The translations under genes were made by a program, and so were the position numbers. Shown here in pieces: positions 50,991-53,817 of a DNA stretch of 64,000 nt. This stretch comes from Streptacidiphilus rugosus AM-16 (GTDB taxonomy: Bacteria > Actinomycetota > Actinomycetes > Streptomycetales > Streptomycetaceae): contig NZ_JQMJ01000003.1 in the NCBI RefSeq assembly GCF_000744655.1, forward strand, positions 310,001 to 374,000, read 5' to 3'. A model generated the notes under the pieces. It saw only the letters and a list, made by a program, of their open reading frames with translations, was not told the DNA's origin and did not search any database. Every line of letters begins with the position of its first letter. Within the stretch, counting starts at the first letter, position 1.

Positions 50991-51737
50991 GTGGCAGACG
51001 AGCCGAACAGCGAGTCCATACCGTCCCTGCCCGCGCCCCGACCGCCGGACGAGCACGACCCGCCCGACCCGGAGGAGGGCCCGACAGCCGGACCCGACGA
51101 GGAGCGCCGCTGGTCGCTCCCCTCCCTGCTGGTCCTCGGCCTCGCCGTGGTCGTCCTGGTGTGCGCCGTCGCCTACCACCTGGGCACGGTCTTCCTCTCC
51201 GTCGCCCCGAGCAACCCGGTCTCGCAGCGCCACTCCGCCGCGATCAACGCGCACGTCCTCCCCGAGTTCGAGCAGAACTGGCAGCTCTTCGCACCCAACC
51301 CGCTGCAGGACGACATCGCGGTCGAGGCCAGGGTGCAGACCCTCGACGCACAGGGTCGCCGCGCCGACTCCCCCTGGATCGACCTCACCGCCCACGACTT
51401 CGCCGCGATCCGCGGCAATCCCGCGCCCAGCCACGTCGACCAGAACCTGCTGCGACGCGCCTGGGACTACTACACCGCCTGGCACAGCCAGCAGGACGAG
51501 TCGTCCACCGGCTTCGGCGGCCCGCTGTCGGTCGAGTACCTCAAGCGCATCGCACTCCAGCGGATCGGCCGCAGCTACGGCGGCCAACGGATCATCCAGA
51601 TCCAGTTCCGCACGATGACCACCCCGCTGACCGGCCCCTCGTGGACCGGCGCGCCCGCCACCGCGACGCCGACCTACCGGCAGCTCGCCTGGTGGCCCGC
51701 GAACGACGATGACTACCAGAAGCTGGGGGTGGCCTGA
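50991..51737 (+). CDS. DUF5819 family membrane protein
   Basis: A 248-residue protein with a Pro/Glu-rich N-terminus (residues 1-40), one membrane span near residues 44-65 (LPSLLVLGLAVVVLVCAVAYH) and an extracytoplasmic domain containing FEQNWQLFAPNPLQDD near residue 95. This resembles the DUF5819 family, which is regularly encoded next to HTTM proteins. The GTG at 50991 lies after GGCGGG. Its TGA overlaps the ATG of the HTTM gene (GATGA). The similarity of the W-x-FxxNP segment to SdpA proteins is suggestive but unproven. Confidence 0.82.
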   Translation: MADEPNSESIPSLPAPRPPDEHDPPDPEEGPTAGPDEERRWSLPSLLVLGLAVVVLVCAVAYHLGTVFLSVAPSNPVSQRHSAAINAHVLPEFEQNWQLFAPNPLQDDIAVEARVQTLDAQGRRADSPWIDLTAHDFAAIRGNPAPSHVDQNLLRRAWDYYTAWHSQQDESSTGFGGPLSVEYLKRIALQRIGRSYGGQRIIQIQFRTMTTPLTGPSWTGAPATATPTYRQLAWWPANDDDYQKLGVA

Positions 51738-52968
51738 TGACCTCGGCGACCCTGACCCGACGCCTCTCGGACGCGACCTTCACGGGCTGGACCACCGTCA
51801 CCGGCCAGACCCTCGGCGCCTACCAGGCGGCGATCGTCCGGATCGGCTTCGCGTTGACCTTCGGCGGCTTCCTGCTGCGCGAGTGGCCGCACCGGCGCGT
51901 CCTCTACGGAGATCTGGCGCCCTGGAGCCAGGACCTGGCCCGGCAGATGCTCGGCTCCAACCACGCCTTCACCGTGCTGATCTGGTCGGACGACCGGTGG
52001 TGGTTCGAGTGCGTCTACGCGGCGGCGATCGTGGTCAGCGGCCTGCTGCTGGTGGGCTGGCGGACCCGGACGACCTCGCTGCTGTTCATGGTGCTGGTGC
52101 TGTCGATCCAGAACCGCAGCATCCTGGTCGGCGACGGCGGCGACAACGTCGTCCACCTGATGGCGATCTACCTGGCCTTCACCCGCTGCGGCCAGGTCTG
52201 GTCCCTGGACGCGCGCGCCGCGCGGCGCGGCGCGCGGGAGGGGGCGACCCGGTCGGCCTCGGGCTCTGGCTGGGGCTCGGCGCGGTACTGGCGTACTGCC
52301 AGGTCTCCGGCTTCGCGAAGCTCGGGATGCTCGACCTCGGGCTCTACGACTGGGGCACGATCTTCTGGCTGTTCTGGCTGCTCACCGGCCTGCGCGGCTA
52401 CCTGGCCCGGCGTCGTCCCGGCAGCGAGGGCGAGCAGTTGCTCGACGCGCTCGGCAAGCTGCTGCACAACGCCGCGATGCTGGTGATCGCCGTCGAGGTC
52501 TGCTTCATCTACGCGACGGCCGGCTGGTACAAGATCCAGGGCTCGCTCTGGCAGGGCGGCACCGCGCTCTACTTCCCGCTGCACCTCTCGTACTTCGACC
52601 CGTGGCCGGGCCTCGCCTCGCTGCTGGGCGGCCACAGCACCATGGTCTTCCTGATCACCTACGGCACGGTCATGGTGCAGGTCTCGTTCCCGTTCCTGGT
52701 CTTCAACCGGCGGATCAAGAACGTGCTGCTGGTCCTGATGATGACCGAGCACGCCGCGATCGCGGTGACGCTGGGCCTGCCCTTCTTCTCGCTGGCGATG
52801 ATCGCCGCGGACTCGGTCTTCCTCCCCACCGGCTTCCTCGTCCGGGCCGGTCAGGGGGTGGCTAGGGGGGTGGCGCGGCTCTCCGCCACGCCAGTCGTGC
52901 GCCAGTCGATCAAGCGCCCCCCACGCACAACCGAGCGCGATCCGGAGCCCGTGTCACCGGTCGGATAA
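51737..52968 (+). pseudogene. HTTM (vitamin K carboxylase-like) membrane protein, frameshifted
   Basis: A multi-span membrane protein of the HTTM/VKGC-like family, which includes SdpB. The first frame reads from ATG 51737 (MTSATLTRRL) through FALTFGGFLLREW and IQNRSILVGDGGDNVVHL to about 52240. The second half, from VGLGLWLGLGAVLAYCQVSG through VCFIYATAGWYKIQGSLWQ to the stop at 52968, lies one frame back. The break coincides with a five-G run at 52240-52244 inside a very GC-rich stretch; one extra G would join the frames into about 410 residues. It is either a recent inactivation or a sequencing error. It is coupled to the DUF5819 gene. Confidence 0.8.
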
Positions 52969-53013
52969 ACGCGTTGTTCAGGGCGCCATGTCACCCACCC
53001 GAAAGGGCGCGTC

Positions 53014-53817
53014 ATGAACACGCGAATGATGAATGCGGAGTTCCCGGTCACGGGGCAGCCGATCCGCGTCGTCGTGATCGACGGCGAGCCGTGGTTCGCT
53101 ACGATGGACGTCTGCAAGATCCTTGGACACAACCGCAACACGACCGAGGCGACCAGGTCCCTCCACAAGAGCGAGACCCGGCGCGTGAACACCCGCGGGA
53201 TTAAGTTCAGCCCAACCGGAGTTAGTCACGTTTCCGCTGGTGGCAATGGCTACCAGCGTGGCAACCCGATGCTCAACGTCGTGAGCGAGAGCGGCCTCTA
53301 CCGGCTGATCATGCGCTCGGACAAGCCCGCCGCCCGGCCCTTCCAGGACTGGGTCAGCCGCGAGCTCCTGCCCTCCATCCGCCGGGGCGACGCCGACCTC
53401 GGCGCCCAGCGCGAGCGCATGGCGGAGACCTTCGCCGAGGCGCTCGACCTCGACCGCCCCGCCGCGTCACCCCTGATGGTCGACGACCAGGGGTTCGAGA
53501 TCCGCACGGACGGTTCGGTCCACTGCGAGCACGGGATGATGGCCCCGGTGCTGCCCGATCCGATCGAGGAGGCGGGGCCGCCCTTCGGCGTCTACTACGT
53601 CTGCCGGTCCGTCGAGCATGTCGGCATCCGCGGCAGCATCGCCTACCGCCCCTGCCGTCGTCTGCACTTCGTGGACATCGTGCGCCAGCTGCTGCGCCAG
53701 CGGACCGCGGAGCCCGCCGTCGCTCCGGCCGCCCCGCCGCACCTCGTGACCCTGGCCGGCCCGCCCGCCTATGTGGCGGAGGTGCTGCAGCTCATGGGCG
53801 TCCGTTCGGCGTCCTGA
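53014..53817 (+). CDS. BRO-N (phage antirepressor-type) domain protein
   Basis: A 267-residue protein. Residues 10-110 match the BRO-N/antirepressor domain: GEPWFATMDVCKILGHNRN, VSESGLYRLIMRSDKPAARP and FQDWVSRELLPSIRRG. The C-terminal half has a Cys/His-containing segment (VHCEHGMMAPVLPD; YYVCRSVEHVGIRG) that I do not recognise. Antirepressors normally sit in prophages, but no phage genes are nearby, so this is a stand-alone copy. Codons near residues 60-80 (ATT, GTT, AGT, GCT) are less GC-rich than neighbours and suggest transfer. The ATG has GAAAGGG upstream. Its 3' end overlaps the convergent trmH gene by 26 bases. Confidence 0.8.
   Translation: MNTRMMNAEFPVTGQPIRVVVIDGEPWFATMDVCKILGHNRNTTEATRSLHKSETRRVNTRGIKFSPTGVSHVSAGGNGYQRGNPMLNVVSESGLYRLIMRSDKPAARPFQDWVSRELLPSIRRGDADLGAQRERMAETFAEALDLDRPAASPLMVDDQGFEIRTDGSVHCEHGMMAPVLPDPIEEAGPPFGVYYVCRSVEHVGIRGSIAYRPCRRLHFVDIVRQLLRQRTAEPAVAPAAPPHLVTLAGPPAYVAEVLQLMGVRSAS

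Follow-up and report, generated by a model that had tools for sequence, protein, structure and literature searches.

A stand-alone Bro-N gene of Streptacidiphilus rugosus belongs to a family whose intragenic palindrome is coupled to putative recognition residues

The window analyzed here, a 64,000-nucleotide stretch of the Streptacidiphilus rugosus AM-16 genome, contains a stand-alone Bro-N gene in which an in-frame palindrome of 27 bp, worn in this copy, lies within the codons of the Bro-N domain itself. The arms of this palindrome covary among homologues, and its base pairs change together with residues of the putative recognition helix, at the same residue positions in a chromosomal gene family and in a separate set of mostly phage genes. 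Recognition of DNA by the Bro-N domain is strongly supported by these sequence comparisons. The explanation that we regard as fairly probable overall is that the gene encodes a host-domesticated regulator, and that a Bro-N dimer would recognize the ~27-bp palindrome in the gene encoding it, which would serve as an autogenous operator, with reader and site forming a single cassette.

The gene, its neighbors and its chromosomal family

Bro-N is a common regulator domain of phages, and to our knowledge its DNA targets are mostly unknown. The window protein scores 77.9 bits against the PF02498 profile, the curated Pfam cut-off being 25.6, and its gene is the sole Bro-N match in a genome of 9.0 Mb. 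The features of the gene and its leader are:

53014..53817, + strand: Bro-N gene, 267 aa, ATG start; an ORF with homologues over most of its length in 13 of the 14 genomes of the genus, that of the window included
53062..53373, + strand: Bro-N domain, aa 17-120; Pfam PF02498 at E 9.6e-22, with a model resembling DNA-binding domains
52970..52984, + strand: conserved leader element of CGTTGnnCnGG type, a candidate promoter or operator common to most leaders in both chromosomal settings
53001-53007, + strand: RBS-like GAAAGGG in the window leader
53461..53709, + strand: C-terminal module, aa 150-232, with C171, H173, C197 and C214 invariant in alignments and a putative metal site

The original prediction described a stand-alone antirepressor-type gene outside any prophage, a view that flanking prophage remnants would contradict, and this is borne out. 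Ten neighboring ORFs were scanned with Pfam and none is of phage type, so that the gene does not have the location of a phage antirepressor; nine could be named (MoeA, MobA, acyl-CoA dehydrogenase, ion channel, DUF5819, SpoU rRNA methylase, PNPOx, glyoxalase and a CGNR finger) and the tenth has no Pfam match. DUF5819 lies upstream of the Bro-N gene and the SpoU rRNA methylase downstream, and the window contains no tRNA according to ARAGORN. The window protein has no NCBIfam match, a PDB sequence search yielded no relative (the best hit, at E 1.7, was ignored), and single-protein scans of genome contigs and viral contigs gave no match.

A leader of ~45 nt (52970-53013 in the window) containing CGTTGnnCnGG precedes most copies at two unrelated chromosomal settings and is absent from second tandem copies. 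An upstream mini-ORF in the leader, seen by eye and in the window only, was rejected. The upstream membrane gene, which we take to be of HTTM type, appears to be split by a frameshift in the window into overlapping ORFs at 51737-52486 and 51709-52968, the latter without a Pfam match; in relatives that have the HTTM-type gene it is mostly a single ORF of about 420-530 aa.

A search of 100 genomes, among them that of the window, gave matches in 26; of the 13 other same-genus genomes 12 match, every one at E <1e-58. The Streptacidiphilus homologues extend over most of the length, and the copy in one genome (G007) is frame-broken. SpoU adjoins the Bro-N gene in 12 of 13 Streptacidiphilus loci, where DUF5819/HTTM or another gene lies upstream and SpoU downstream. 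The Kitasatospora setting differs from this, and two Kitasatospora strains have a second copy behind DUF5819; the neighbors of relatives were grouped, and not all were named. Tandem copies are present in five Streptacidiphilus genomes, and some copies are broken. The gene stands alone in its own genome, but it is not a lone case, since the family occurs in both Streptacidiphilus and Kitasatospora-type genomes; the distribution fits a host-domesticated family member.

A further lineage of the Streptomycetaceae possesses a stand-alone Bro-N gene of its own (L049 9640-10683 and L050 9428-10261) in a shared neighborhood, with a different C-terminus that looks HTH-like by eye. The L019 copy of that lineage has a repeat with 13-base arms inside the domain.

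The C-terminal half was noted at the outset as Cys/His-containing and without an assigned family, and this holds. Its four CxH-C-C residues are invariant in 18 aligned sequences; nothing scores above the Pfam cut-off, there is no NCBIfam name, and comparison with PDB folds gave no match below E 1 (Foldseek best E 1.5). The module aligns with two zinc fingers at Z 2.7, and AlphaFold, modeling it alone, predicts a small fold in which strands combine with two helices, at pLDDT 76. Within the bacterial family 47 of 297 genomes have the module (13 Streptacidiphilus including the window, 33 of a second, Kitasatospora-type genus, and one of a third), and phylum-wide, besides the window, one of 395 genomes has a weak match at E 0.005. 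From Pfam, NCBIfam, the PDB fold search and the alignments, the answer to whether this half is known or new is that it is a new conserved module, and it may hold a metal site.

An in-frame palindrome in family and phage Bro-N genes

Less GC-rich codons had been pointed out near residues 60-80, and third-position counts confirm them. In the window gene, GC3 is 0.60 over aa 61-85 as compared with 0.91-1.00 in the other five blocks, and the mean for aa 61-85 over 48 family genes (50 less the broken L077 and L080; L219 is partial) is 0.58 as compared with 0.87-0.96 elsewhere. In the codon alignment many third bases of this stretch are the same A or T across most genes. The original prediction did not foresee that these codons correspond to an intragenic palindrome common to the family and to phage Bro-N genes:

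53194..53268, + strand: low-GC3 stretch, aa 61-85
53200..53226, + strand: in-frame 27-bp inverted repeat, 12-3-12, codons 63-71; covarying among homologues and worn in the window copy

Structure was tested by RNAalifold on 42 of the 48 genes, leaving out six without a gap-free stretch (L052_8183, L054_8200, L055_8233, L056_8239, L066_9001 and L218). The 12-3-12 repeat is the only helix, with compensatory changes at 11 of 12 pairs, and 89.5% of palindrome cells pair. Over the structure as tested, doubly changed cells number 129 as against 46 when shuffled (0/500); pairs in which any double change occurs, 13 as against 12.1 shuffled, are not in excess. Two single-sequence helices, P1 (columns 10-16/58-64) and P3 (52-57/82-87), were rejected, with double changes at only one of seven and one of six pairs, respectively, and Rfam gave only chance-level matches. 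A dyad beyond chance is found in the family and in the phage set described below; the window copy taken alone forms seven of 12 Watson-Crick pairs, and just one of the 42 forms fewer. In an intact relative, Streptacidiphilus carbonis, the site is perfect. Directly after the worn palindrome, at 53235-53258, the window has a second inverted repeat with 10-nt arms and a 4-nt gap, which may be a shifted or new site, and a similar one can be seen in copy 2 of S. fuscans (L052_9001). S. fuscans copy 1 is without the palindrome stretch.

With a covariance model the element is detected at E <0.01 in 13 of the 14 genus genomes. Its matches at E <0.001 fall only at Bro-N family genes; apart from these there is one at E 0.006, in G007, and the others are at E 0.18 or worse, ruling out a dispersed repeat or mobile element. 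In one genome (G001) the 21-base palindrome core occurs at a single place in 8.5 Mb at ≤3 mismatches. The G007 match is a second, partial palindrome stretch between the Bro gene and SpoU (L047 10653-10709), apparently the remnant of a lost tandem copy.

Bro-N genes are abundant in phages, 926 of 50,697 phage records matching the window protein at E 1e-3. Many of 57 other Bro-N ORFs have a strong inverted repeat at a like place, and among 99 non-redundant Bro-N genes 31 reach p ≤0.05 against a synonymous-codon null, 12 of them at the floor of 0.01. An unselected scan of 28 centers in 98 non-family genes has a single strong peak, centered 15 codons before the E-x-G-L-Y motif (0.56 paired as against 0.42 in the synonymous null, z 13.2; next best z 2.4). 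The phage set was drawn from 361 Bro-N ORFs, of which 287 have both anchors and 118 remained after removal of redundancy; a minority come from bacterial contigs (L084-L100, L018-L027, L049 and L050). At least nine of 12 pairs form in 75 of the 118 genes, where 8.2 are expected from ten synonymous-codon randomizations, and at least ten form in 43, where 1.4 are expected; the other 43 have no dyad of 9/12. The successive non-family sets overlap, and independence holds only between the family and the phage set. Three named phages were examined: Donkeykong and Ldl1 have a 10-scoring repeat at the dyad position, and the best repeat of Gladiator is a weak one at another position. The family site lies 25 codons before E-x-G-L-Y owing to extra residues in between, and its in-frame 12-3-12 geometry is the same as in the phages.

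Coupling between protein residues and palindrome pairs

The protein positions concerned are:

53128..53148, + strand: putative recognition helix region, aa 39-45; residues 39, 42, 43, 44 and 45 couple to palindrome pairs in the family and in the phage set
53188..53190, + strand: residue 59 (N in the window), coupled in the family to outer palindrome pairs

The strongest family couplings are of residue 42 with pair 8 (z 13.9), 59 with pair 0 (13.8), 59 with pair 2 (13.1) and 44 with pair 6 (13.0), followed at z 6-9 by residues 39, 30, 103, 60, 43, 45, 50 and 23. All 12 cases of N59 have A.T at pair 0, and 26 of the 30 with D59 have a left-hand G. Among residues 46-58, which are closer to the site, only residue 50 couples, which argues against linkage. 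In the phage set the top positions coincide with those of the family: 42 (z 21.8), 45 (14.8), 44 (12.4), and 43 and 39 (about 10), these values being conditional on the preselection of 75 genes for the dyad. Residues 87, 40, 98, 110 and 29 follow at z 7-8. The weaker coupling outside the helix, at 23 and 30 in the family and at 29, 87, 98 and 110 in the phage set, counts against the explanation that we favor.

The phage-set associations are as follows: N42 with T.A at pair 7 (46/46), R44 with G.C at pair 6 (28/29), D45 with G.C at pair 9 (23/24) and K45 with A.T there (15/16). In both sets M45 and K45 go with A.T, and R44 and D45 with G.C. At pair 8 of the phage set there is a recurring A-G mismatch, in 16 of 46 genes with N42, which suggests that this pair is read unequally on the two half-sites. 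Rules learnt from the phages and applied to family pairs are correct in 35 of 40 cases for residue 44 and pair 6 (permuted mean 26.9) and in 12 of 15 for residue 45 and pair 9 (6.0), with p 5e-4 each; the rule for residue 42 and pair 7 is correct in 32 of 35 but is uninformative, as the family hardly varies there.

Disjoint contrasts between closest pairs of genes point the same way. In 37 phage-set pairs, p is 8.6e-6 for 42 with pair 7, 7e-5 for 45 with pair 9 and 0.003 for 44 with pair 6; in 21 family pairs it is 0.001 for 59 with pair 2, 0.009 for 44 with pair 6, and about 0.046 for both 42 with pair 8 and 59 with pair 0. Six control residues per set are not significant. The recognition residues of a gene predict its own base pairs, save for residue 45 in the family contrasts, which are not significant (p 0.31 at pair 9 and 0.25 at pair 10).

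A proposed autogenous site, its alternatives and known systems

In the mechanism that we propose, Bro-N would act as a symmetric dimer on the ~27-bp palindrome in its own coding sequence, placed between the codons of the recognition helix and those of the E-x-G-L-Y helix, with inner base pairs read by residues 39-45 and outer ones by residue 59. Bound protein would block transcription through its own gene and so set its own level. Recognition residues and site, contained in one 200-bp stretch, could move together, so that self-recognition would survive a change of specificity. The domesticated family would have retained the autogenous site of its phage ancestors and added a probably metal-binding half that may sense or recruit. 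Against this reading count the worn window copy, the 43 phage-set genes with fewer than nine pairs and the weak, displaced repeat of Gladiator.

The inverted repeat might instead act as an mRNA hairpin in translation, in stability or as an antisense target. RNAalifold does give a 12-bp stem with a short loop and strong compensatory change, and in the small group of genes centered at -18 G.U makes up 21 of 69 non-Watson-Crick cells. It is not clearly enriched elsewhere (13/66 in the family, 26/160 in the phage set and 21/144 in the group centered at -15), and a share close to one in six, which uniform cells would be expected to give, favors duplex DNA over RNA. Coupling to a recognition helix would also be unexpected unless the protein bound its own mRNA, and we consider the hairpin unlikely.

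A second alternative arises from the divergence of the region around the site:

53125..53325, + strand: stretch aa 38-104, with divergence uncoupled from neighboring genes (neighbor-gene control, synonymous profile)

This stretch contains the recognition helix, residue 59, the palindrome and residue 103. Over 153 pairs from 18 Kitasatospora loci, synonymous divergence of the gene flanks tracks that of the neighboring genes (rho 0.59), whereas aa 38-104 shows no such relation (rho 0.13, p 0.12), its divergence being higher than that of the flanks in 137 of the 153 pairs. Exchange between strains as a cassette is the likely cause, judging from these profiles. The palindrome could be the target of such exchange, with cutting or pairing there driving recombination or homing: the fast-turning stretch is centered near it, and its similarity does not follow the flanks. 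Pfam finds no recombinase or nuclease domain in the protein, however, and selection keeping helix and site together would produce the same boundaries, which leaves a recombination target improbable.

Just as improbable is an ordinary prophage leftover on its way out. The worn window palindrome would suit this, and so would the clean absence of the gene from G010, where 62 bases separate the end of SpoU from an ORF that shares 94% identity with the Bro-adjacent ORF of a sister genome. Broken copies in several relatives would suit it as well. Decayed or truncated copies, partly downstream tandem members, were noted at L041 9179-9994, L045 9406-9921, L047 9801-10592, L048 and L051, and suggest birth and death of gene copies. 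Against a leftover stand the recurring neighborhoods, the lack of phage-type genes among the ten window neighbors scanned, the near-ubiquity in the genus (G007 frame-broken), and dN/dS, which is below 1 in 12 of 12 ortholog pairs tested (0.12-0.63), a measure blurred by recombination or exchange. Of the suggestion that the gene could be a domesticated regulator, domestication fits its presence in 13 of 14 genus genomes, the SpoU neighbor, these ratios and the conserved C-terminal module, and regulator is a role to which the residue-to-base coupling points.

Bases of the palindrome also encode loop residues, and contacts of residues 39-45 with that loop would mimic coupling between residues and bases. 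Silent positions speak against this. In all 118 phage-set genes, which provide an unselected check free of the dyad preselection, the E-14 Ile/Thr codon has C as its last base in every one of the 23 genes with D45 as compared with six of 25 with K, M, Q or L45; a silent third base thus follows residue 45, which protein contacts alone do not explain. Wobble complementarity in the phage set also goes beyond the codon pool, most at pair 9 (74/75 as against 43.1) and pair 3 (72/75 as against 62.2); at family pair 0 it shows no excess (33/39 as against 33.0). The model moreover leaves part of the loop without structure (pLDDT <50 at aa 69-82), and intra-protein contacts are a quite improbable explanation. 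Hardly credible is an initiator-like element, with the palindrome as part of an intragenic replication origin like oriLambda in gene O: a precedent is described in PMC3985674, where an initiator binds sites within the gene that encodes it, but here there is one site per gene and not iterons, the host family is chromosomal, and no replication partner is among the ten neighbors scanned.

Returning to the autogenous site, we think it likely that Bro-N genes are generally self-addressed, in that phage antirepressors and their domesticated relatives would carry the site of their own product inside the coding sequence of the recognition domain, under a code (N42, R44, D/K/M45, N/D59) learnable from sequence, and would change specificity by swapping one cassette of reader and site. 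Were every gene to hold its own target, the specificity of many phage regulators for DNA could be read from sequence and tested with a single binding assay; one would also see how a DNA-binding protein changes specificity while keeping its own operator, reader and site traveling together.

Among the structural matches listed, the Bro-N model resembles the N-terminal fold of baculovirus Orf22 (4ye7, Z 10.3), DdrC (7.5) and the APSES proteins Mbp1 (7.1) and PCG2 with DNA (6.8); only 4ye7 is above Z 8, and for the others the likeness goes little beyond a shared arrangement. For corynephage ANT8, PMC4257102 cites a report that a Bro domain binds DNA. Among the matches listed in the open-licence literature none reports a palindrome inside a Bro-N or antirepressor gene, though an earlier report may exist elsewhere, and the excerpted text of PMC8263062 has nothing bearing on one. 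The nearest known arrangement is that of lambda O and oriLambda, likewise a DNA-binding protein with sites inside its own coding sequence, bound as dimers, the origin lying in the middle of gene O according to the sections of PMC3985674 available. Lambda O has four 19-bp iterons that serve replication, whereas here a single palindrome, unique in G001 as to its core, lies in the recognition-domain codons of a different protein family. The phage Bro-N antirepressors (PF02498; PHROG 130 and others) have the same Bro-N domain, the same 27-bp in-frame dyad and the same residue-base rules, and the window family differs from them in being chromosomal, without phage neighbors and joined to a new C-terminal module.
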